Below the pieces are notes generated by a model, which saw only the letters and a program-made list of their open reading frames with translations, ran no database searches and had not been told where the DNA came from. This document shows positions 4,752 through 57,990 of a DNA stretch of 64,000 bases, piece after piece. A program made the position numbers and the translations under genes. The DNA lies in assembly GCA_022818135.1 (NCBI GenBank), contig JAFMSR010000029.1:124001-188000 (forward strand), read 5' to 3'. The DNA is from Saxidomus purpurata. Lineage: Eukaryota > Mollusca > Bivalvia > Venerida > Veneridae. Every line of letters begins with the position of its first letter. Within the stretch, counting starts at the first letter, position 1.

Positions 4752-5438
4752 GTCGAGCCCGCCATATGTCAAAAGGGCTAACTCCTTACCAAGTAGAGAT
4801 GGGTCAAAATACACCTAAATATTGGATGTAACATGCATGTTGTACCACAGAAAAGTGGTCTCGATTTTTTACGGCCAGTAATAAAAAAGTTACAATATAA
4901 GCTATTTATAGTAACAACAAAGGGAAGTAATTCTAAAAACAAGGGTAGCCCATGGTGGTGAACATTTGTACTAAGTAACATCAAAATCCCTCCATGCATG
5001 AAGAAGAAATGCTCCAGACAAAGATATTCTTGACTTTGAACTTTAACCTCTAAGTGTGACCTTGACCTTAGACGTAGGGACCTGGTTCTTGCGCATGACA
5101 CTCCGTCTCATGATGGTGAACATTTGTGCCAAGTTAAATTAAAATCCCTCCATGCATGAAAAAGATATGCTCCGGACAAAGTCATTCTTGAATTTGACCT
5201 TTAACCTCCAAGTGTGACATTGACCTTAGACCTAGGGACCTGGTTCTTGCGCATGACACTCCGTCTCATGATGGTGAACATTTGTGCCAAGTAACATCAA
5301 AATCCCTCCATGCATGAAAAAGATATGGTCCGGACAAAATCGGACGGACGCACGCACGGACGCACGCACGGACGCACGCACATATACTGAACCGCCAAAA
5401 GTGACGACTAAGTCGAGCTCACCGCAAGCGGGCTCGAC
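4752..5438. mobile_element. Short element with 11-bp inverted ends and 158-bp tandem units
   Basis: Exact inverted termini GTCGAGCCCGC (4752-4762) and GCGGGCTCGAC (5428-5438) enclose three tandem units starting at 4951, 5109 and 5267. Each unit begins CATGRTGGTGAACATTTGT. A (CGGACGCA)n array follows at about 5337-5390. Just inside the right end, GTCGAGC and GCTCGAC (5412-5438) can form a hairpin. The layout resembles non-autonomous bivalve elements with tandem cores. Open frames across it are repeat shadows. Confidence 0.7.
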
Positions 5439-18439: not shown

Positions 18440-19330
18440 GGGAACCCCCTCCCCAAATTTTGACCCAAGGGGCATGATTTGAACATTTTTTGTAGAGGTC
18501 CACTGGACCGATGTTACATACCAAATATTTAAGCTCTAGAGCTCTAGGTCATGTGATCTGGAGCAGGTTTCTGAGTGACACTCTATGTGTGGTCAATAGG
18601 GACCGTATTTGAAGAAGCTTGGTAGAGGTCAACTAGGCAATGTTGCATGCTAAATATCTAAACTTTAGGCTTTGCGGTTTGAGAGAAGAAGATTTTTAAC
18701 GTTTTTTCCAAAATAAACCTATGTAAAATCAAGTGACCCCCGGGCAGGCTGAATTTTGACCAAGGGGTCATAATTTGAACAATCTTGATAGAGTTCTATA
18801 AACCAATGCTACGTGCTAAATATCTAAGCTCTAGGTCTTGTGGTTTCTGAAAAGAAGATTTTTAACTTTTTTCCAATAAAAACCTATGTAAAATAAAGTG
18901 ACCCCCCGGGCGGGCTCAATTTTGCCCGGGGGTCATAATTTGAACACTCTTGGTAGAGGTCTACTAGCCAATGATACTTGCTAAATATCTAAGCTCTAGG
19001 ACTTGTAGTTTCAGAGAAGAAGATTTTTTAACGTTTTTCCTATAAAAGACTCCCCGGGCGGACATAATTTTGACATTTGGTTAATAATTTGAACAATCTT
19101 GGTAGAGGTTTGCTAGCTTATGCTACATAAATAGCTTAGCTCTAGGCCTTGTAGTTTCAGAGAAGAAGATTTTTAACGTTTTTCCTATATAAGCCTTTAT
19201 AAAATCAGGTGACCCCCAAGGCGGGCTCAATTTTGACCAGGGGGTCATAATTTGAACAATCTTGGTAGAGGTTTACTAGGCAATGTTACATGCAAAATAT
19301 CTAAGCTCTCAGTCTTTTTAGTTTCAGAGA
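18440..19330. repeat. Tandem array of about 150-165 bp units
   Basis: Six diverged copies, recognisable by CATAATTTGAACAATCTTGG near 18,470, 18,603, 18,767, 18,931, 19,083 and 19,244. Each is followed by TAGAGGT, a TACATGCTAAATATCTAAGCTCTAGG-like stretch and GAGAAGAAGATTTTTAACG. It is non-coding and the second array of the composite element. Confidence 0.8.
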
Positions 19331-19494
19331 AGAAGAATTTTAATGTTTTCCCTATTTGTTGCCATGGAAACCAGAGTTATGCATGGAACGAAATTTCCTT
19401 TAAAACCTTTGGAAGAGCTTCAAGCAAGGAAAATGTCTTATCAACATTGATAAAGTATAGTAAAGAAATTAAAGTGCTAGACTGCAAACTCAAT

Positions 19495-19975
19495 TAGATA
19501 TTGCAATTTTTGTTAAACCAGGGGTCATAACTCCGGAAGAACTAATATGATCAAGCCCAGATCTTACGGTAATACACATTCTCTGTAAATATGATAAGGA
19601 TTAGTGAAAAAATGAAGGTGCTAGAGTATAAACATAGTTAAATATTGCATTTTTTGTTAAATCAGGGACCATTACTCTGGAATAACTACACCGATCAAAT
19701 CCATAATTGATCTCGTCCAAGATCTTGTAGTCATACACATTCTCTGTAAATATGGTCAGAATTAGTGAAGAAATGAAGGTCCTAGAGTGTAAACATAGTT
19801 AAATATTGCATTCTTTGTTAAATCAGGGGCCATAATTCAGGAAGTACTGATCAGATTAAGTTCATAATTGAACTCATCCGAGGTGTTGCGGCTATGTATA
19901 TTGTGTTTAAGTTTCATTATGATTGATTGAAAAATGTAGATGCTAGAGTGTAAACAAACGAATTGTGGACAGACT
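19495..19975. repeat. Tandem array of about 155-bp units
   Basis: Three copies start near 19,500, 19,652 and 19,807 with TTTTTGTTAAATCAGGGG. They contain CATTCTCTGTAAATATG and end GTGCTAGAGTGTAAAC. This third array leads directly into the GACGG-type tract at the right end of the composite element. Confidence 0.8.
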
Positions 19976-23982: not shown

Positions 23983-24765
23983 GTGAATAATCTCACCAAA
24001 ACCTGGCTAGAGGGCGGGTCTAATACGTCCTTGATAAATTTCACAAATCCAATATTTAGCACGGACGTCAAACCTTGCGCGGATTTCTACACAATAATTT
24101 ATAAATTAATGATACAGCGGATTGCACGAGAAGTTGTGTGTTCTTACTTCTCTGTTAATATGCCTATTTTTTCGTGCATCCCTTCCGACCAACTGCATGT
24201 ATGCTTCACAGCTACAAACCGACATAATACATGTGTCCTTGAATTAACCAAAGTTCAAGGAGAAATCATTCCAACAGTGTTTCATACATCAGCTTTTCCA
24301 GACTACTTCTACGGAACGTCTTGTCAGAATGCAAGCTTCAAAAAGGAATCAGAGCTTGTTTCAGCCATTTGCTTTTTTTCTAGCTCAGTTTTGTACTTTA
24401 CCTACTCAAATCTCACAGTTTTGTTTTGCAAAATATAAACACGGATAAGAAATATCAGGCATTTTCATAAAATGTCAGCATGTTGTTCATTTTTGTTAAT
24501 TTACGGAAAAGTATTGCAATTTGAACTACATGCTGTTAAAAGGGTAGGAAGCAATGACTATTTTCAGGTCTATTTTGAGTTGGCCTACACGGGATTGTTC
24601 ACGGTGTATACAGGCTCATATACAGGGGCTCTTGACCAATCAGAATCTTTTAAATTTATCTGCGGAATTATAATAATATATATATTCATACAAGGCTTGA
24701 TAAAGTTTTCATGCATACTAGAGTTTCATGTCAATGTCGCTAAATGGCGATGTATAGCGTCGTGA
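23983..24765 (+). other. Open stretch of unknown nature inside the inverted-repeat structure
   Basis: A 151-codon frame (23,983-24,438) and a 97-codon frame (24,472-24,765) share one reading register with a single TAA (24,436-24,438) between them. The first product is rich in Phe, Cys and Ser without a recognisable domain. The second contains a hydrophobic stretch (FICGIIIIYIFIQGLIKF) near residues 63-80. Both are long for this base composition but could be chance. I do not recognise a function. Their position within the arms would fit a degenerate element-encoded protein. Confidence 0.2.
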
Positions 24766-37304: not shown

Positions 37305-37983
37305 AATAACCCCCGTACACCCCACTGACACAGTTTATAAAATTTATGTAATATTTGATGCTTTAATTATTGGACCTGCACAACTTAAGGTTTCTGTGAA
37401 GTATAATCAAATTCTGGCCAGTATTTTGGAGGTTAAAAGCGCACAAGATTTTACCATCTCAAGCCCTTGTGACCTTTGATCTAGTGACCTGAAACATGGA
37501 CCATGCACAACTTAACATGGTGCTTATCACTTCTATGAAGTATCATTAAATTCTGACCAGGGGTTTTGGAGATTTAGCGTCCACAACATTTTTCTATCTC
37601 GAGCCCCTGTGACCTTGACATGTAACCTAGTGACCCAAAACATGGACCATGTACAACTAGGCATTGAACTTATCACTTGTGTGAAGTATCATTAAATTCT
37701 GACCAGGGGTTTTGGAGATTTAGCGTCCACAAGATTTTACTATCCCGAGCCCCTGTGACCTTTGACCTTGAGACCCGAAACATAGCCCATGCACAACTAG
37801 GCATTGTACTTATCATTTGTGTGAAGTATCACTAAATTCTGACCAGGGGTTTTGGAGATTTAATGTCCACAAGATTCCGTCTACAGACGGACGGACGGAC
37901 GGACGGACGAACGGACGGACGGACGGACAGATAAGCTGAATCCAGTATACCCCCTTTACACTTTGTGTTCGGGGGTATTATAG
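37305..37983. mobile_element. Element with CCCCC-bearing ends and four tandem units
   Basis: The left end is ATAACCCCCGTACAC. The right end, reverse complemented, is TAATACCCCCGAACAC. The interior has about four units of roughly 143 bp (GGACCATGCACAACT, AAATTCTGACCAGGGGTTTTG, GAGCCCCTGTGACCTTTGA) starting near 37,368, 37,495, 37,641 and 37,781. A (GGAC)n array follows at about 37,887-37,926. Its termini resemble those of the MITE at 3,851, suggesting related ends around different cores. Confidence 0.7.
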
Positions 37984-39636: not shown

Positions 39637-39641
39637 GTAAA
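39637..39641. repeat. Target-site duplication GTAAA, left
   Basis: GTAAA directly precedes the 5' LTR and is repeated directly after the 3' LTR at 47,723-47,727. Five base pairs is usual for BEL/Pao integration. Confidence 0.9.
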
Positions 39642-39643
39642 TG

Positions 39644-39658
39644 TCGTGAACATCACGA
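39644..39658. promoter_or_regulatory. Palindrome TCGTGA-ACA-TCACGA at the LTR edge
   Basis: A perfect 6-bp inverted repeat with a 3-bp spacer starts two bases inside the LTR. It is conserved in the 3' LTR. The CGTGA/TCACG half-sites recur as CGTG-TTT-CACG at 39,783-39,793 and as CACGAAA-A-TTTCGTG at 46,081-46,095. This spacing suits a dimeric DNA-binding protein. Function is inferred only. Confidence 0.45.
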
Positions 39659-39753
39659 TTTAAGTTACACTATATTAACGTAATGGTAACATTAACGGCG
39701 TATAACATACTACTGACGATGTAAGTTATATAACTGAGTACATATAGTATGTT

Positions 39754-39777
39754 ACCGACGGTGATGGTTCCGTCGGT
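39754..39777. promoter_or_regulatory. U3 palindrome ACCGACGG-N8-CCGTCGGT
   Basis: A perfect 8-bp inverted repeat around an 8-bp loop lies about 85 bp upstream of the TATA-box candidate and is identical in both LTRs. It could be a binding site for a transcription regulator. It lies upstream of the predicted start, so a role as an RNA hairpin is less likely. Confidence 0.45.
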
Positions 39778-40090
39778 GTCGTCGTGTTTCACGTTCTTTC
39801 TTATATTAAATCATTCCTCTTTCCACGTGTTTTTCATGGGTTTTGTGTTATATATACTATATATATAAGTGCAATTTTCTATAATAAGTAGAGCATTCAG
39901 AGCATTTAGAACATTCAGGACATTTACATTTAGAATATAGAAATTAACGTTTATCTATAACAGACTTAATAAATGGTTCAAATAGAATCTGTTTGTGTTG
40001 GAATAAATTATAAAACTTGGAAATATCATTTATTTGTGCTCTCCATAAAATGTAAAGGAAATCAAATTCCGATGTGGTCGCCACATTGTT

Positions 40091-40108
40091 TGGTGCCGGA
40101 ACCCGGGA
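40091..40108 (+). promoter_or_regulatory. Primer-binding site
   Basis: TGGTGCCGGAACCCGGGA begins five bases after the 5' LTR. TGG complements the CCA end of a tRNA, and the rest fits an 18-nt tRNA 3'-end match. I do not assign the tRNA species. Position and length are as expected for priming minus-strand DNA synthesis. Confidence 0.8.
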
Positions 40109-40257
40109 AAAATCGGGAAAATGTAAAGAGTGTAAAAGGAAGATAAAACCGACAAATAATGGAAATTGAATAACGTTTACTAAGTAAAGAAAATAGGAAT
40201 AGTGTCACACTGATATTGTGTACAGTGTTGTGCTGTGTATTCAAAGTGTTTGGAAAT

Positions 40258-40268
40258 TCAAGGTAAAA
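40258..40268 (+). promoter_or_regulatory. Candidate splice donor overlapping the gag start
   Basis: CAAG|GTAAAA (exon end at 40,262, GT at 40,263-40,264) lies immediately before the gag ATG at 40,268. Splicing here would remove the gag start and all of Gag-Pol from the message. Paired with the acceptor-like site at 46,151-46,152 it would place the zinc-finger ORF at the 5' end of a short mRNA. Inferred from motif only. Confidence 0.35.
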
Positions 40269-40675
40269 TGGCGAACGTGTCAAGAATAAAAGCAGTGCGA
40301 ACAAGGTATAGGAATACCTTGAACATAGAGATTGAAATGGCTAAAGGTTTAATATATGGTGAAAGTCAGGAAAGTGATCCTATCGCGTTCGGAAATAAAT
40401 GTACAAAGTTACTGAAATGTTACAGTGAAAAATTGGAGGTTCAAATGTGTAAACTGACCGATGCGTTCGAAGATAGTGATCCTGAAAGTGTAGAGAAAAT
40501 AGTTGACGAAGACTGTGAACTAATACAACATGCGGAAAACTGCCTGATTGAGCTAGAACAGTTCATTGAAAATATGAAAGCCAAAACAAAAGATGAAAGT
40601 TTGGACGGAAATAACCTCGAAGTCAAGATCGAAAGTAGTAGGCTTATATATCTGCAAGAACAAATGCAACAGTAA
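40268..40675 (+). pseudogene. gag: BEL Gag N-terminal part, ends at in-frame TAA
   Basis: The ATG at 40,268 (AAAATGG context) opens a 135-codon frame starting MANVSRIKAVRTRYRNTL. An upstream in-frame ATG at 40,235 is less favourable and lies before the donor-like site. The product is charged and largely helical in composition, ending in a Gln/Glu-rich stretch typical of the coiled-coil region of BEL/Pao Gag. TAA at 40,673-40,675 stops it. The same frame continues directly into the rest of Gag, so the stop is a single lesion or, less likely, a readthrough codon. Gag would form the cytoplasmic particle that packages element RNA. Confidence 0.8.
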
Positions 40676-42265
40676 GTGTTCAGACAAATGCAGCAGCAAA
40701 GGGAACTAATGGAACGCCAAGAACAAAAAGAACTTCAACAAAAATGCTCTGTTAAATTACCAAAATTGGATTTGTACACATTTAACGGGAATAAATTAAA
40801 GTGGACTCAATTTTGGGACGCATTTGAGTGCACAGTTCATGCAAATAGAAACCTGTCACAAATTGAGAAGTTTAATTATCTACAAACAAAAGTTGTGGGT
40901 GAAGCCAGACAAGCTATTGCTGGTTTAGCGTTGTCCAAAGAAAATTACGATGTCGCAGTGGCCATTCTCAAAGAAAGGTTTGGAAATCCCCAAGAAGCTG
41001 TTGATTTACACTACAAAGGGCTAATAAATATTCAAGCACCTAGTGCTAAAGTGGAAAGTTTAAGAACATTCCTAGATACGGTAGAAAGACACTTGCGTAG
41101 TTTAGAGGTATTAAATGAAAACATCAATCAACATGTGTTTATTTCAATAATTCGATCCAAACTTCCTGGAGAAGTATTAAAGCAAATAGAACTACGCACT
41201 GGAGCGAAAACACAATGGACGGTGCATAAGCTCAGAGATGAAATCCGGGAATATGTGTTAGCATGTGAACGATCCGAAAGCAAAGGGGAGAACACAACAT
41301 CAACAGAAAGTCATAGAGGAAGCATGTCTAAGTTTCAAAGGCATCAATACAGGTCAAACTATAAAGCATATCCTCCCCAGAGAAGTGAACGGCCGTTTTA
41401 TACACCTCCAGCTTCAGCAGAGGCATTAACAGCCAGTGTTAAAGGCAGAGCAACAAGCATAATCAAAGATAAGTGTAGGTACTGCAGCGAACGGCATTGG
41501 AGTGATGAATGTGTAAGATATAAAACAGTTGACGAGCGCAAAAGAAAATTATATGGGTCCTGTTTTAAATGTTTGAAAGAAGGACATATGGCTACTGAGT
41601 GCAGATCTAAGAAAGCTTGTGTGTATTGTAGTGAAATGAACAGTCATCATAGAAGCCTGTGCCCAAAGAAATTCGACATAAAATTATCTAGTGTACACTT
41701 GTCGGAAGAAATAAGTGATAAAACTACGAAGCAAGGCTTTCTCGAAGAAGGCCATGTTCTTATTTCCTCTGATGAAATGGTGCTGATGCAAACAGCCCAA
41801 ACAGACGTGCGTAATGAAGACAGTTCAGCTTGTGAAACAGTTCGCTTATTATTTGATTCAGGGTCACAGAGGACATACATCACAGAACGATTAGCTGCTA
41901 AACTAGGTTTGAAACCGGAAGACGAACAAGAGTTAAAACTTGTGACGTTTGGGAGTGAAAATACAAAGGTGATAAAAACAAAGACAGCTCGAATAGGTAT
42001 CAAATTAAATAATGGATCCTACATGAAGATAACAGTAAATATTGTGCCTACTATAAGTGGTACAATTCAGAGAAATCCAGTGACAAAATTGTTAACTAAG
42101 CAGATGGAACATCTGGTGAATAGTGTTGAGCTGGCGGACACAATTCCAACAGTGAAGGAACATTCAACAGTAGAAGTTCTGATCGGAAACGATTACTACT
42201 TAGATTTCGTGTTGCCACAGAGAATTGAAGTCGAACCTGGTTTGTATTTGCTAAGCTCAAAATAA
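40676..42265 (+). pseudogene. gag-pro: BEL Gag core, zinc knuckles and retropepsin
   Basis: 530 codons continue the Gag frame after the TAA; no ATG lies at the start. Residues about 28-190 resemble the DUF1759 Gag core (KLPKLDLYTFNGNKLKWTQF, later LKERFGNPQEAVDLHY). Residues 267-330 hold three cysteine-histidine knuckles, the middle one a canonical CFKCLKEGHMATEC. An aspartic protease follows, with the catalytic Asp in LLFDSGSQRTYI at residue 394. The protease would cleave the polyprotein. The segment ends at TAA 42,263-42,265, immediately before a GWILTG motif that normally follows the protease in this superfamily, so the stop is within a conserved stretch and probably disabling. Confidence 0.85.
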
Positions 42266-43999
42266 GGGTGGATTTTAACAGGTCGAACAAGTGAAGTTTT
42301 AAAAGGCATAGACACAGTGAATATGCTTGTTTTAACGTACGGAAATGACGTCACAAATAACAGTGTTTTCTCAAGTATAGACGGTGCAATATCCACCAAA
42401 CCAGATTTAGAAGACTTCTGGAACGTTGAGTCTATCGGCATTACAGACAACGTGAAGAAATCGAACGATGAAATTGCTATGCAAAAATTCAAAGACACCA
42501 TAAAATTTGAGGACGGTCGATACGAAGTGACCTGGCCTTGGCGTGACGAAGAGTTTGAATTACCAGAAAACAGACAGCTTGCTTTAGGTCGTCTGAAGTC
42601 GACTATATCGCGAATGAATAGCCAACCAGAGCTTAAGAAAAAATACAACGCTGTCATTGAAGACCAACTTAACAAAGGTGTCATAGAGAAAGTAAATTAC
42701 AAAGTTCAAGATGGTATGACACATTACATACCTCACCATGCTGTCATTAACCCGCAAAAGACAACCGCGAAACTACGTGTAGTTTATGACGCTTCATCAA
42801 AGACACGAAAAGAAAACAAAAGTCTAAACGAGTGCCTATATCGAGGACCGGTGATTCTACAACATCTCTGTGGAATACTGTTGCGGTTTCGCTTGCATAA
42901 AATAGCAATAGTTTCGGACATTGAAAAGGCGTTTTTGCAGATAGGGTTACAGTTAGATCAAAGGGATGTAACGAGGTTTTTGTGGTTAAAGGACATTGGT
43001 ACACCTACGGTGGATTCGAGTAATATACAAGAGTACAGATTTTGTAGGGTCCCGTTTGGAGTAATATCGAGCCCATTCCTGTTGGGAGCAACAGTACAAA
43101 ATCATATGGATACATACAATACCGATCTATCCAACAAAGTGAAAGACAACATGTACGTAGACAACTTGATAACTGGTACAAGTAATGAGAGTGAAGCGAT
43201 TCATTTCTACAAGGAAGTAAAGTTTATGTTCAAAGAAGCTTCAATGAATTTACGAGAGTGGATATCCAATAGTGATATTGTGAATAACTACATACCACGT
43301 GATGACCGGGCTGACGCGGGGTCAATATCAGTACTAGGTTTGTGTTGGAATCCTATGGACGATACGATATCACTGAAATCGACTGAAGCCAGTGACATTG
43401 TAATTCCAACCAAACGTTCCATATTAAAGAACGTAGCTTCGAAGTTTGACCCTATTGGATTATTTTCGCCGGTGCTTCTCAGTGGAAAGTTACTTTTACA
43501 AAAGCTTTGGCAATTAGGGCTTGATTGGGATGAAGAAATACCAGAAGAAGATGTATTACAATGGAACGCAATTAAAAGTGATCTTGAAAAACTATCAAGT
43601 TACAAATTACAGAGATGCGTTACAAAGGACGGAGATAGCTGTGTGAATTATAGTTTAATATGTTTTTGTGACGCCTCTGAAAAGGCATATTCAGCAGCTA
43701 TTTATCTGCGCCAAAGTTCAACCGTTGAAACAAAGGTCGAACTAGTATTTTCTAAATCAAGACTTGCTCCAGTGAAAACTTTGACCATACCTAAGCTAGA
43801 AATAATGGCAGTTTTGATTGGTGTTAGGTGCATTAAGTTTGTCCAGTGTCAACTTAAACTGACAGTACAGCATTTGCATCTCTATACAGACTCACAGTGT
43901 GTCTTAAAGTGGATTTCGTCAGAAAAGGATCTTCAAGTATTTGTGAAAAATAGAGTAAATGAGATCAAAACACAGAGATGTTACATTCTCATATGTTAA
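42266..43999 (+). pseudogene. pol: BEL reverse transcriptase and RNase H
   Basis: The same frame resumes after the TAA at 42,263. The first ATG is at 42,317. RT motifs follow in order: KLRVVYDASSKT, VSDIEKAFLQIGL (catalytic Asp), RFCRVPFGVISSPFLLGAT, then YVDN at 43,154-43,165 in the position of the YxDD box, an Asn variant I believe occurs elsewhere in Pao-type elements. The RNase H region has CFCDASEKAYSAAIYL (Asp at residue 452 counted from 42,317), PKLEIMAV and LYTDSQCVLKW. The frame terminates at 43,999, after a frameshift near the AAAA run at 43,967-43,970. The downstream frame carries the normal continuation (DVTFSYVKTKENPADVATRG). The enzymes would copy element RNA into DNA. Confidence 0.9.
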
Positions 44000-45860
44000 G
44001 ACGAAAGAAAATCCAGCTGATGTTGCTACACGCGGAACCACACTGCAAAAACTTGCTGAAAATGAATTGTGGTGGCATGGTCCATCTTGGTTAAGTGTAT
44101 CGTGTTCGAAATATCCAAGCGACATAGCCTCAGAAATGTGTACTTCAAGTACATGTGCATGTACTGCAATCGAACAGATGCAAGGTGAAGAAATGAAAGG
44201 TGCAACAAGTGTACTTACATCGAACTTAGAAACGATTGTTCCGTTTGAGATTGACTATGGGTCATACTCTTTTATCACAAAGCTTATACGTGTAACGGCC
44301 TATGTGCGAAGATTCATATACAATCTGAAGAAACATGCAGACAAAAACACCGGAGTTCTCTCTAATTCCGAAATCAATGAATCAGAAAATATGTGGTTAC
44401 TTTTCATTCAGCGGAAGCATTACAGTGACGTTCGATTGGCAATAAGTAACAACAAATCGAACTGTTTACAACGCCAGTTAGGCTTGTTTCTTGATGACAA
44501 GGGTTTTCTGCGTTGCAGGGGAAGGCTGCAATATGCAGAGCTTAGTGAAGGTTCGCGATACCCAATACTTGTGCCCAAGAAAGACAAGTTCGCTCATCTG
44601 TTGGTTGAAAAACATCACAAGGAAATTATGCATTGTGGTGTGTCTCAAACGCTGAGCAAGTTGCGCTATAAATACTGGATTCCGCAAGGACGGGCAACCG
44701 TAAAATCAGTCTTGCGCCAGTGTAATGTGTGTCGTCGTTGTGAAGGTGGTCCTTACAAAGTTCCGGAAATGCCACCATTCCCAAAGATGCGGGTAACATC
44801 GTCACCGCCATTTACAAACACAGGACTGGATTATTTAGGTCCTTTATTCATAAAGTCACCTGTGGAAACAAAGAAAATTTGGGTTTGTCTTTTTACCTGC
44901 TTGGTAACACGCGCCATTCATTTGGAACTAGTGCAAGACATGTCGACTGACGAGTTTCTCCTTGCCTTTAGAAGGTTCATTTCTCAGAGAGGTGTTCCGA
45001 ATGAAGTAATTTCGGACAATGCATTACAATTCAAAACAGCAAGTGCCACAATTGATTTGCTTTGGATTCGAATGTTGAAAAATGAGGATGTTCTTAGTTA
45101 CATGTCCGAAAGGAAAATCAAATGGCATTTCATTGTTGAACGAGCACCGTGGTTCGGTGGATGTTATGAAAGGCTAGTTGGCTTAGTCAAAAGATCACTT
45201 CGTAAAACACTGGGTCGAAAATTACTTACACTCATTCAAATGACCACAGTTTTGAAAGAAATTGAAGCCATACTTAACTCAAGACCGTTAGTCTATGTCG
45301 GTGACGACATCAATTCAAATATCACATTGACTCCAAACCATTTCCTTACCTTAAATCCAAGAGTTAGCGTACCTGATATCGACGATGATGGCGGTGACAA
45401 TAGTTACTTACCCTGGGCAAGTTCTGCCGATAAATTACTAGTAATGTGGCATAAAGGCCAATTATTACTTGACAAATTTTGGAAAATCTGGAGAGATGAC
45501 TATTTGTTGAGCTTGAGGGAAAGGACACAAACAAAATTAAAAACTGGTAGGATACAGTCCTCGGCGCAACCATGTGAAGGGGACGTAATTCTTGTGAAAG
45601 ACGAACTTCCGCGGAGTTGTTGGAAAATGGGTAAAATAAACAAATTAGGAATATGTAGTGACGGAAATGTACGGTCAGCGGAAGTGCAGCTGGCATCAGG
45701 TCGTGTAATAAGACGACCTCTGAAATTCCTGTTTCCAATTGAAACGTCGGAACAACACGAAATGAATAGTGAACAAACACGGCCTACAAAGTGTGACTCG
45801 CCGCGACCTGTGCGCAAAGCCGCCATAAGGGCTTTACAAAAAATGAAAGAATTAAAATAA
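43971..45860 (+). pseudogene. pol: BEL integrase and C-terminal domain
   Basis: Relative to the upstream pol frame this frame is shifted by one base. Numbering from 43,959, it contains the ENPADVATRG linker, an HHCC zinc-binding domain (His about 213 through CNVC at 255-258), and the catalytic triad D291 (TGLDYLG), D353 (VISDNALQF) and E404 (GGCYERLVG). The second gap is about 50 residues, wider than retroviral integrases and, as I recall, usual for BEL/Pao. A DUF5641-like tail follows (LTPNHFLTL, then EGDVILVKDE). It ends naturally at TAA 45,858-45,860. It would insert element DNA into chromosomes. The domain itself is intact; only its connection to pol is broken. Confidence 0.9.
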
Positions 45861-46178
45861 AGATAAGATAATATACTGCAAACATTTGTGGCATTACGAA
45901 TAACTTGTAAATAGTATTTCTATGATTGGGTATTTAAATATTATTATGTAGCAAACCTAATTCTCGATGTTTAAATCTCAACGGTGTATTGTTATATAGT
46001 AAAGGTGTGCACGTGATAATTTACCCGCCAAGTAGTATCTTCATTGTTATACACTTATACACCGTCGACCTTACTCTTTGCACGAAAATTTCGTGTTTCT
46101 TTATGTTTTTATAAAGTATTTGTGTGGTCATTTGCTACTTAACTTCGGACAGCAAGGTCATTTCTGTAACGTTGGAAA
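45861..46178 (+). promoter_or_regulatory. pol-ORF3 spacer with candidate splice acceptor and palindrome
   Basis: 318 bp separate the pol stop from the zinc-finger ORF. TTTGCTACTTAACTTCGGACAG|CAAG gives an acceptor-like AG at 46,151-46,152 behind a pyrimidine-leaning tract, and no ATG lies between it and the ORF start at 46,179. CACGAAAATTTCGTG at 46,081-46,095 is a near-perfect palindrome sharing half-sites with the LTR palindromes. Either splicing or an internal promoter could express the downstream ORF. Both are inferences. Confidence 0.4.
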
Positions 46179-47123
46179 ATGCCTATACATAAATGTAAGG
46201 ATTGTGGAAGGATTTATCAGCACCAAAAGAGTCTGAGTAGACACATTAAAGAAAAACACAAAATGATTGAACACTGGCTGTGTGTACAAAGTGATTGTTC
46301 ATCTAAGTTTATAAGGAAAAGTTACCTTTCTAGACACCTAGTATTGAAACATGAATTTACAGCAATAGAAGCCAGAGAACTTGCCCTTTCTGCTCGTCGC
46401 GGAGACGTATCTACGACGTCATCAAACTATTATGACGACGTAAGTGAAGATGACTCCGCATTTGACATTTTAGCAGAGTTAGATGAATTAAGGAACGGAG
46501 GAGATCCTGGCGCTTTCAAGGAAACGATAAAAGAGTTTGATATTACCTTATTGTCTGAACAACAAGTTATAGATGATATCGTACTAGAAGAGCCAGAGTG
46601 TGAAATTAGTGTTGGTGACGGAGATGTTAGCCATGTGGATAGTGTAATAAGTGAAAATTGTGAAGTAAGTGTTTCGGCTGATGTATGTTCCAATGATGTA
46701 GAAATTGAGTGTAGCGTAAGTGATAAAAGTGATGGTGGTAGTGCTTCAAAATGTTGTGTGCGAGATTATAGCGATATATCGTCGGCTAGTGAAGTCGGAA
46801 GTGTTAGAATACATACTGATATTTCGCGTACTTCAAGTGTTAGCAGTGTTTTGTGTAGTGGCGATAATGATGTTGAAAGTGATATTGAGAGTAGTACTGT
46901 TAGTAATAATGTTGAAAGTGATAGTGATAATGTTATTGAAAATGACATAATTGTAATAAGTGATGATGAAGAAGATGAGCTAAATATCTGTACGGATACA
47001 ACAACGACACGACGTGTGTGTTACTGGACATACACCGTTAGAAAGATTTTCACTTATAACGGAGACACTGTTGTGCATGAACAAATGAACACTAGCATTG
47101 ATTCATGGAATTACAAAACATAA
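46179..47123 (+). CDS. Two-finger C2H2 zinc-finger protein encoded in the retrotransposon (ORF3)
   Basis: An intact 314-codon ORF, ATG at 46,179 (GGAAAATGC), stop at 47,121-47,123, sits between pol and the 3' LTR. Finger 1 is C6-x2-C9-x12-H22-x4-H27; finger 2 is C35-x4-C40-x12-H53-x4-H58. Both contain the usual aromatic and Leu core positions (LSRHIKEKH, LSRHLVLKH). Residues about 75-256 form a low-complexity Ser/Asp/Glu/Val-rich acidic tail, probably disordered. Residues 257-267 (IIVISDDEEDE) fit a SUMO-interaction motif with acidic flank. A short C-terminal segment (YWTYTVRKIFTYNGDTVV) looks folded. The design suggests a nuclear DNA-binding regulator acting on the element LTR or host chromatin. 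There is no transmembrane segment, so it is not an envelope protein. It is uninterrupted although Gag-Pol is broken. Origin by host-gene capture is an inference. Confidence 0.85.
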   Translation: MPIHKCKDCGRIYQHQKSLSRHIKEKHKMIEHWLCVQSDCSSKFIRKSYLSRHLVLKHEFTAIEARELALSARRGDVSTTSSNYYDDVSEDDSAFDILAELDELRNGGDPGAFKETIKEFDITLLSEQQVIDDIVLEEPECEISVGDGDVSHVDSVISENCEVSVSADVCSNDVEIECSVSDKSDGGSASKCCVRDYSDISSASEVGSVRIHTDISRTSSVSSVLCSGDNDVESDIESSTVSNNVESDSDNVIENDIIVISDDEEDELNICTDTTTTRRVCYWTYTVRKIFTYNGDTVVHEQMNTSIDSWNYKT

Positions 47124-47276
47124 ACGATTTACATTATATTTGATATTGACTTAAGTATATTCTTTTGTATAATTTGATTTTCTGTTTCAGAATAGACTTT
47201 GTGACTAGAAAGCACTGTATTATGCTTAATGTCTTTACACATAAAATTCAATTTGTATGTTAATTTCCGGCGGGAA
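47124..47276 (+). promoter_or_regulatory. ORF3 3' flank and weak polypurine tract
   Basis: The sequence just before the 3' LTR is TTTCCGGCGGGAA. The purine run is short and interrupted (GGCGGGAA), unlike the long polypurine tracts of many LTR elements. It is the only candidate plus-strand primer site by position. Confidence 0.4.
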
Positions 47277-47722
47277 TGTCGTGAACATCACGATTTAAGT
47301 TACACTATATTAACGTAATGGTAACATTAACTGCGTATAACATACTACTGACGATGTTAGTTATATAACTGAGTACATATAGTATGTTACCGACGGTGAT
47401 GGTTCCGTCGGTGTCGTCGTGTTTCACGTTCTTTCTTATATTAAATCATTCCTCTTTCCACGTGTTTTTCATGGGTTTTGTGTTATATATACTATATATA
47501 TATAAGTGCAATTTTCTATAATAAGTAGAGCATTCAGAGCATTTAGAACATTCAGGACATTTACATTTAGAATATAGAAATTAACGTTTATCTATAACAG
47601 ACTTAATAAATGGTTCAAATAGAATCTGTTTGTGTTGGAATAAATTATAAAACTTGGAAATATCATTTATTTGTGCTCTCCATAAAATGTAAAGGAAATC
47701 AAATTCCGATGTGGTCGCCACA
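47277..47722 (+). repeat. 3' LTR (446 bp)
   Basis: It is a direct copy of the 5' LTR with two substitutions and one additional TA dinucleotide in the TATA tract. AATAAA at 47,605-47,610 is the expected poly(A) signal for element transcripts. GTAAA target duplication follows at 47,723-47,727. Confidence 0.95.
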
Positions 47723-47727
47723 GTAAA

Positions 47728-52897: not shown

Positions 52898-53777
52898 TTA
52901 TCCCCCCGCCGAAGGCGAAGGGGATATTAGAAATGGTCTCCGTCCGTGCGTCCGTGCGTCCGTCCGTGCGTCCGTGCGTCCGTCCCAATTTTGTCCGGAG
53001 CATAACTCCAAAAGTACTTGAGGGATTTTCTTCAAACTTCATACACTGACAGAGCACATTGGTAGAAAGTGCAGTGTGTAAGAACAATAACTCTACCTTG
53101 CCTGCTTTTAGAGTTATTCCCCTTTATCAGATTTACTTTAAAAGTTTTGTCCAGAGCATAACTCCAAAAGTACTTGAGGGATTTTCTTCAAACTTAATAC
53201 ACTGACATAGCACATTGGTAGGAAGTGCAGTGTGTAAGAACAATAACTCTACCTTGCCTACTTTTAGAGTTATTCCCCTTTATCAGATTTACTTTAAACG
53301 TTTTGTCCAGAGCATAACTCCAAAAGTACTTGAGGGATTTACTTCAAACTTAATACACTGACATAGCACATTGGTAGAAAGTGCAGTATGCAAGAACAAT
53401 AACTCTACCTTGCCTACTTTTAGAGTTATTCCCCTTTATCAGATTTACTTGTCCGAAGCATAACTCCAAAAGTACTTGAGGGATTTTCTTCAAACTTCAT
53501 ACACTGACATAGCACATTGGTAGGCAGTGCAGTGTGCAAGAACAATAGCTCTACCTTTCCTACTTTTAGTCAAATAGAAAAATACCATACCTATACTGAT
53601 AATGAACATTAATATAATTTTGCAAACCTTCTCTTCATTGCCTTATTCTTTTTCCACTTACTTGAAAACTGTACTCAGCATGACCATAACTATACGGCTT
53701 TTTAAGGATTTCCTCTCACCAAGTAAAATGTACGAAAGTACAACCTTCAGGTAACTTCTTCCCGGCGGGGGGATTAA
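52898..53777. mobile_element. Element with CCCCCCGCC ends and four tandem units
   Basis: The left end is TTATCCCCCCGCCGAAGG. The right end, reverse complemented, is TTAATCCCCCCGCCGGGAAG. After a (CCGTCCGTGCGT)n tract at 52,938-52,985 come four units of about 153 bp starting near 52,989, 53,144, 53,299 and 53,449 (TTTGTCCGGAGCATAACTCC, AGTACTTGAGGGATTTTC, CAATAACTCTACCTTGCC). The units are very similar to one another, implying recent amplification. The same unit occurs in inverse orientation at 57,370-57,990. It sits in an intron of the C1GALT1-like gene. Confidence 0.85.
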
Positions 53778-57369: not shown

Positions 57370-57990
57370 CATATCATTATTGAAACGTTTCTGGATTCAA
57401 AATCTCCCTACAAAATACCAAAGAATTACTGTATTTTCCCTTAATGTCCTCTCTCATTGTATGCAATATGAAGTAATTTTCTTCAGTACTCCGGACAATA
57501 AAATGTAACAAAGGGGGATAATAAAAAATTAGGCAAGGTAGAGTTATGGTTCTTAGGCACTGCACTTTCCTATATTGTGCTCTGTCACTGTATGAAGTAT
57601 TAAGTTATTCCCTTCAGTACATTTGATTTAGGCTCCAGACAAGAACAATCAATAAAGGGAAATAATTCAAATATAAGGCAACATAGAGTTATGGTTCTTG
57701 GGCACCATACCTTTTTGAGCGTCCTCTCTTAGAATACGCAGTTTGAAAGAATTCCCTATAAGTACTTTCTGAGTTATGCTCCGGACAAGAAAATGTAACA
57801 ATGGGGGATTATTAAAATATTAGGAGAGGTAGAGTTATGGTTCTTAGACTATGCACTTTTCCTCATTGTGCTCTATCATTGTGTGAAGTTTCAAGTAATT
57901 CATTTTTATACTTTTGGAGTTATGCTAAGGACAAATAAGTGAGGACGGACGGATGGATGGACGTGACGGACAGACGGACGGACGCACGAA
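57370..57990. repeat. Tandem-unit repeat, inverse orientation, with GGAC tract
   Basis: About four diverged units (GTAGAGTTATGGTTCTTAGG, GCACTTTCCT, ATTGTGCTCT, TTATGCTCCGGACAAG) read as the opposite strand of the unit at 52,989-53,560. They end in (GGACGGAC)-type sequence at 57,944-57,990. A further short (GGAC)n tract lies at 58,142-58,162. It is non-coding. Confidence 0.7.

Follow-up and report, generated by a model that had tools for sequence, protein, structure and literature searches.

Animal LTR retrotransposons are usually described as gag–pol elements, with or without env. In foamy viruses, an accessory gene downstream of pol encodes Tas (Bel1), which, like similar transactivators, binds and activates the LTR. 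These systems belong to vertebrate retroviruses and are not C2H2 pairs; their likeness to the gene described here, ORF3, is one of role. Mosquito Pao elements took a chuvirus glycoprotein, and a Pao–chuvirus hybrid is Anakin (PMC8742986; excerpt of PMC7642597). Plant LTR retrotransposons carry additional ORFs in both sense and antisense orientation, e.g., gene23 of Grande and those of Retand (excerpt of PMC7264820). In VANDAL transposons, the VANC proteins lift the silencing of their own transposons (excerpt of PMC10398659).

The locus described here resembles the BEL/Pao elements (Belpaoviridae, Semotivirus) with env-like genes in possessing gag–pol, LTRs, and an extra ORF beyond gag–pol inside the LTRs (PMC8742986; excerpt of PMC7642597). 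However, the extra ORF encodes a C2H2 protein that is acidic and lacks a transmembrane-like stretch, whereas theirs encodes a glycoprotein. With Grande gene23 and Retand, as presented in the excerpt of PMC7264820, it shares its place behind pol and ahead of the 3′ LTR as an accessory ORF, together with a suspected nuclear regulatory role; those are plant elements with other domains, often in antisense orientation, and are likened to it by role and position. The likeness to VANC is the proposed role, in which a protein of the element binds DNA of its own family and removes silent marks (excerpt of PMC10398659); VANC belongs to Arabidopsis elements of another class and is related by role only. 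Among the matches listed, no C2H2 accessory third ORF of LTR elements was found described in the open-licence literature, Repbase aside. The main text of PMC6238403 does not contain the word "zinc" and that of PMC3118150 does not contain "zinc finger", and the excerpts of PMC12440569, PMC8220671, and PMC2774666 treat additional ORFs or CCHC fingers and not a C2H2 third ORF. We would cautiously call the ORF3-type gene so far undescribed. Accessory ORFs as such are already known; the accessory type that combines C2H2 fingers with an acidic stretch would be the new part.

The window, i.e., the whole stretch of 64,000 nucleotides of Saxidomus purpurata DNA that was analyzed, contains a young copy of a BEL/Pao element on the + strand. 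Apart from ORF3, its parts are the following.

39637..39641, no strand: target site duplication GTAAA, left copy, flanking the 5′ LTR
39642..40085, + strand: 5′ LTR with TG...CA ends
40091..40108, + strand: putative primer-binding-site-like stretch just 3′ of the 5′ LTR, read from the sequence
40235..40675, + strand: first open stretch, by position the putative N-terminal part of Gag, with a program-assigned GTG start and closed by an in-frame stop
40676..42265, + strand: Gag (DUF1759), zinc knuckle (under cut-off), and aspartic protease (DUF1758), with an in-frame stop at the end (ORF list, Pfam)
42317..43999, + strand: reverse transcriptase and Pao Peptidase_A17 region (ORF list, Pfam)
43959..45860, + strand: integrase (H2C2, rve under cut-off, DUF5641), in a frame different from that of the reverse transcriptase part (ORF list, Pfam)
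47269..47276, + strand: purine-rich tract abutting the 3′ LTR, read from the sequence
47277..47722, + strand: 3′ LTR with TG...CA ends
47723..47727, no strand: target site duplication GTAAA, right copy, flanking the 3′ LTR

The two LTRs are 99.1% identical, differing over 446 aligned columns by two mismatches and a single 2-nt gap. The assignment to BEL/Pao, already made in the preliminary description from the sequence alone, is borne out by the LTR pair with its TG...CA ends, the short GTAAA target duplication, and a Pao-type pol comprising Peptidase_A17, DUF1758 protease, reverse transcriptase, integrase, and DUF5641. Along Gag–Pol, the Pfam families follow in the order DUF1759, DUF1758 (E 7.3e-14), RVT_1 (6.8e-9), Peptidase_A17 (Pao; 4.6e-51), H2C2 (4.4e-10), rve (3.8e-4, below cut-off), and DUF5641 (1.1e-13); the stretch 40235..40675 matches no Pfam family over cut-off. 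Gag–Pol is not intact: in-frame stops interrupt it at 40673 and 42263, and the frame changes at about 43959–43999. Both stops are TAA, in a copy whose LTRs are only two substitutions apart; by a rough estimate, about 0.6 stops are expected in Gag–Pol versus two seen, an excess that is not significant. The copy may have been defective already at insertion. A tblastn search of the window with ORF3 and the stretches starting at 40676, 42317, and 43959 returned self-matches only.

Elsewhere in the window, tandem arrays with units of 140–166 bp (TRF) lie at 4951–5338, 18607–19349, 19572–19956, 37392–37876, 52989–53569, and 57489–57934. AACTCTACCTTGCCT is common to the units of the arrays at 52989 and 57489, where it lies on opposite strands, and these units possibly belong to one satellite family. 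An isolated ORF of 151 codons with a GTG start is found at 23983–24438.

ORF3 and a possible promoter of its own are located as follows.

46110..46115, + strand: TATAAA, candidate ORF3 promoter in AT-rich DNA, 69 nt before the ORF3 start
46179..47123, + strand: ORF3, encoding a 314-aa accessory protein (P0001), from an ATG start to a TAA stop

ORF3 is separated from the pol stop by 318 nt and from the 3′ LTR by 153 nt; the coordinates and LTR ends thus agree with its earlier placement as an intact 314-codon ORF between pol and the 3′ LTR. The stop-free run at ORF3 comprises 317 codons, the maximum in 2000 dinucleotide shuffles of 45861–47274 being 199 over six frames. By sequence comparison, ORF3 is not a chance frame, because 17 related proteins exist, the nearest of which (P0002) is 49% identical over 100% of the length (E 1e-75). 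Four upstream ATGs lie between the pol stop and ORF3, and these together with the TATAAA suggest that a spliced or separately started ORF3 mRNA is likelier than reinitiation. That ORF3 has stayed open while Gag–Pol has broken, as was noted at the outset, is correct as a fact; as a sign of selection it was dropped. The two LTR substitutions translate into an estimated two or so substitutions in ORF3 after the element inserted. A stop results from 4.5% of substitutions there, so that, indels aside, ORF3 would have remained open in roughly nine cases out of ten anyway. Its openness says little, because the copy is young.

The ORF3 protein is built from two fingers, a helical block, an acidic stretch, a short motif, and a terminal hairpin.

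46194..46259, + strand: C2H2 finger 1, aa 6–27 (Pfam, model, pattern)
46281..46352, + strand: C2H2 finger 2, aa 35–58, holding 9 of the 12 invariant family columns (alignment, model, pattern)
46431..46496, + strand: conserved block, aa 85–106, with a modeled helix at 93–106 (alignment, model)
46497..46943, + strand: acidic Ser/Asp-rich stretch of low model confidence, taken as disordered (AlphaFold, composition)
46947..46973, + strand: SUMO-interaction-like motif (SIM), aa 257–265 (alignment, pattern)
47013..47117, + strand: C-terminal β-hairpin, aa 279–313, with block pLDDT values of 90, 94, 92, and 77 (AlphaFold model)

The finger ligands read in the preliminary description, C6-C9-H22-H27 and C35-C40-H53-H58, are both present, and the pattern C-x2-4-C-x12-H-x3-5-H coincides with a finger fold in the AlphaFold model. 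Finger 1 is matched by Pfam zf-C2H2 at residues 4–27 with E 9.2e-5 and 23.1 bits (curated cut-off 25.2). Finger 2 of P0001 has no Pfam match; despite this, it is modeled as a finger by AlphaFold. The two ends of the protein, which had been singled out for structure prediction, are both confidently modeled as the finger region and the C-terminal hairpin, and both are confident again with P0004 as the target, for which the same 17 sequences were realigned. Foldseek returned no match with E < 0.001; the first solved match is the two-finger Tramtrack–DNA complex 2drp (prob 0.99, E 0.015), which likewise has two tandem C2H2 fingers. Tramtrack, however, is a host transcription factor with 27% identity over the fingers, and no membership is claimed. 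The net charge of P0001 is +8 in residues 1–60 and −42 in the remainder, in keeping with the long acidic Ser/Asp tail noted before. No strongly hydrophobic or transmembrane-like stretch is seen on the Kyte–Doolittle scale, used here in place of a dedicated predictor, the maximum over 19 residues being 0.57; across the family, this maximum ranges from 0.37 to 1.66, except for 2.07 in the frame-shifted tail of P0011. When the tail of P0001 is shuffled, the SIM-like pattern arises in 323 of 1000 trials and is cheap as a feature of a single sequence; hence, only its repeated position across the family counts.

Together with its 17 relatives, P0001 makes up a set of 18 proteins. Six relatives were found at E 0.001 among 5.8 billion proteins, and 16, including these six, by a profile search at E 0.01 that scored the 7991 candidates sharing most words; the 17th, P0018, came from a search of longer proteins. 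The relatives are 25–52% identical and share a common architecture. In all non-truncated rows, this plan consists of one or more N-terminal C2H2 fingers, a short helix, a [DE]D[VI]S[DE]D block, a variable acidic stretch, a SIM-like core of the form [IV][IV]x[IV] followed by Ser/Asp/Glu, and a C-terminal region. P0001 displays it in full, from finger(s) through block 81–106, acidic linker, and SIM-like motif to the terminal hairpin, the last of which was modeled in P0001 and P0004 only, one from each of the two subfamilies tried; truncated rows lack parts. The SUMO-interaction-like motif, noted earlier in P0001, keeps its place across the family, in strict form in 14 of the 18 proteins and more loosely in P0014 and P0016. 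Finger 2 is likewise strict in 14/18, and both fingers are strict in 6/18 (P0001, P0004, P0008, P0009, P0015, and P0018), several of the misses being truncated or frame-shifted gene models. Finger 1 is shortened in P0002 and has lost one ligand in P0005, and two-finger binding may not be universal in the family. Invariant in the 11-row alignment are C35, C40, F44, R46, Y49, L50, H53, L54, H58, A65, S89, and D91; finger 2 thus keeps its zinc ligands C35, C40, H53, and H58.

Between P0001 and P0002, 22/27 positions are identical in finger 1, 20/32 in finger 2, 20/26 in block 81–106, and 26/40 in the hairpin, with 48/134 in the linker 107–250 and 7/18 in the SIM stretch. This uneven conservation is as would be expected for folded parts under constraint. 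A 14-row tree, from which the truncated or frame-shifted P0010, P0011, P0012, and P0017 were left out, places P0018 outside a group of P0001, P0002, P0003, and P0016 (support 94/88); herein 1 of 11 inner branches passes both support limits, and P0016 and P0018 form long branches. Apart from finger families and scattered, weak hits, Pfam and NCBIfam yielded no model that describes the family. No relative was confirmed in the viral contigs and prokaryote genome contigs scanned, which is expected, since these collections do not consist of animal genomes.

P0018 supplies a second retroelement context. It has 718 aa and stands for a cluster of 25 sequences, the longest contig being 5.2 Mb. Its family part, residues 373–718, is matched by phmmer to 15 of the 17 other members, with E 6e-29 for P0001 and 5e-36 for P0004 in the 17-protein set. 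Residues 7–155 match the end of Ty3 integrase (E 0.018, the sole PDB match at E up to 1), and residues 135–168 match Pfam Integrase_p58_C (E 2.6e-5, 24.6 bits, under the cut-off of 27). Where GPY/F stands in Gypsy-type integrases, P0018 has GPW. It has no phmmer match to the BEL/Pao integrase of the window, and the best BLASTP hit has E 0.65. The P0018 element is likely of Gypsy type, judging from these modest scores. The fusion may be a join of gene models; a cluster of 25 sequences makes a repeated feature more plausible, the coverage rule of the clustering being unstated. A long spacer, residues 199–372, separates the integrase end from the zinc-finger part and has near its end a basic RRSRR, which we take to resemble the usual end of Gypsy Pol.

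A location behind integrase is seen in both P0001 and P0018, the 2 of the 18 proteins with context at hand, and the family appears to recur there in two LTR-retroelement superfamilies. This recurrence makes a one-off capture of ORF3 unlikely. With a relative located after an integrase end of Gypsy-like type, the ORF3-type gene is probably not specific to BEL/Pao, and it may be a portable helper gene that retroelements use in the nucleus. The case in which the gene occurred in this copy only, which the preliminary description had set against itself, did not arise: there are 17 relatives, and an integrase end is attached to one of these.

The reading that we prefer, at a probability of roughly 0.5, is that LTR retroelements have in ORF3 a genuine accessory gene, whose nuclear DNA-binding product acts on the transcription or silencing of its own element. 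The missing transmembrane-like stretch, the basic finger region, and the acidic rest of P0001 point to a nuclear DNA-binding regulator. In the earlier proposal that the element carries its own regulator, the part that stands is a BEL/Pao element with a DNA-binding-type third ORF, and the regulator role is what we infer from it. The ORF3 product would enter the nucleus, where the tandem C2H2 fingers would bind DNA, most likely within the LTR or leader of the element itself. The acidic tail and SUMO-interaction-like motif would engage host SUMO-dependent chromatin or transcription factors, and the C-terminal hairpin would probably pair the protein with itself or a partner. As a result, the expression of the element would be raised or its silencing lifted, an activating or anti-silencing direction to which we give even odds. 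In yeast as well as in plants and animals, silent chromatin is reported to be favored by SUMO (excerpt of PMC8131101), so that an element protein that is bound to DNA and carries a SIM could interact with such machinery, either blocking or using it.

A candidate binding site for the fingers is present in both LTRs.

39754..39777, no strand: GC-rich inverted repeat ACCGACGG-N8-CCGTCGGT in the 5′ LTR, candidate binding site, chosen post hoc
47389..47412, no strand: the same GC-rich inverted repeat in the 3′ LTR, chosen post hoc

The repeat has perfect 8-bp arms separated by an 8-nt spacer and is followed, about 70 nt downstream, by a TATA-like, AT-rich stretch. A perfect 8-bp arm pair with at least six G/C, a feature picked after the fact, is absent from all 500 shuffled versions of the 3′ LTR. 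It could be a protein site or an RNA hairpin. Autoregulation through a site present both in the LTR and ahead of ORF3 was also considered and found no support from word sharing: the two regions have 14 8-letter words in common versus 11.5 expected (reached by 92 of 300 shuffles), three 9-letter words versus 3.7 expected, and no 10-letter word.

The ORF3 gene would, moreover, have moved between superfamilies, being present in BEL/Pao here and in a Gypsy-type element in P0018. Taken to its full extent, this would make ORF3 a portable C2H2 gene of animal LTR retroelements, passed between BEL/Pao and Ty3/Gypsy, that frees its element from SUMO-dependent silencing by LTR binding, an animal counterpart of VANC; so far-reaching a version is put forward tentatively, at a good deal less than even odds.

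Alternatively, ORF3 could travel with the pre-integration complex as an integration tether or nuclear-import helper, steering integrase to chromatin by means of its fingers and SIM. The ORF3-type gene follows integrase in both linked cases, a DNA-binding-type fold is modeled, and SUMO-rich chromatin would be a plausible address. However, a separate ORF that starts 318 nt past the pol stop, behind four upstream ATGs, is not obviously packaged with Pol, and a target bias is not measurable from the single insertion at hand. We regard this as unlikely.

The same machinery could also be used in the opposite sense, with ORF3 binding the LTR and recruiting SUMO-dependent repressors, so that copy number stays tolerable or related elements are excluded. 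The reported promotion of silent chromatin by SUMO (excerpt of PMC8131101) would suit such a self-limiting repressor. Its anatomy would equal that of the main reading, and nothing in the data gives the sign of the effect. Selection on mobile elements is usually thought to favor activation or escape, which counts against repression, and we consider it distinctly unlikely.

C2H2 fingers can bind RNA as well, and the fingers of ORF3 might serve the RNA of the element in packaging, export, or translation rather than bind DNA. Two of 17 family members weakly match zf-C2H2_jaz, a family of dsRNA-binding fingers (best E 0.016). However, the solved structure that best matches the two fingers is bound to DNA (2drp), and Gag already has a zinc-knuckle-like stretch (under cut-off); an RNA-binding role is accordingly judged improbable.

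C2H2 genes are abundant in animals, and a piece of a host gene caught by chance and kept without function could remain open in a copy this young. The relatives, however, share their architecture at 25–52% identity, and one is joined to the integrase of an apparent second element type, which leaves such a passive passenger very improbable. A degenerate or unusual envelope gene would fit the position between pol and the 3′ LTR, but it can practically be set aside, since P0001 has no transmembrane-like stretch (maximum 19-residue hydropathy 0.57) and ORF3 carries zinc-finger domains.

If ORF3 is a conserved accessory gene of nuclear type, present both in a BEL/Pao element and beside an integrase end of Gypsy-like kind, some animal elements would carry their own regulator. 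It would then offer a direct handle on how such elements fight or use SUMO-dependent silencing, and it would provide a marker gene for recombination between element superfamilies.
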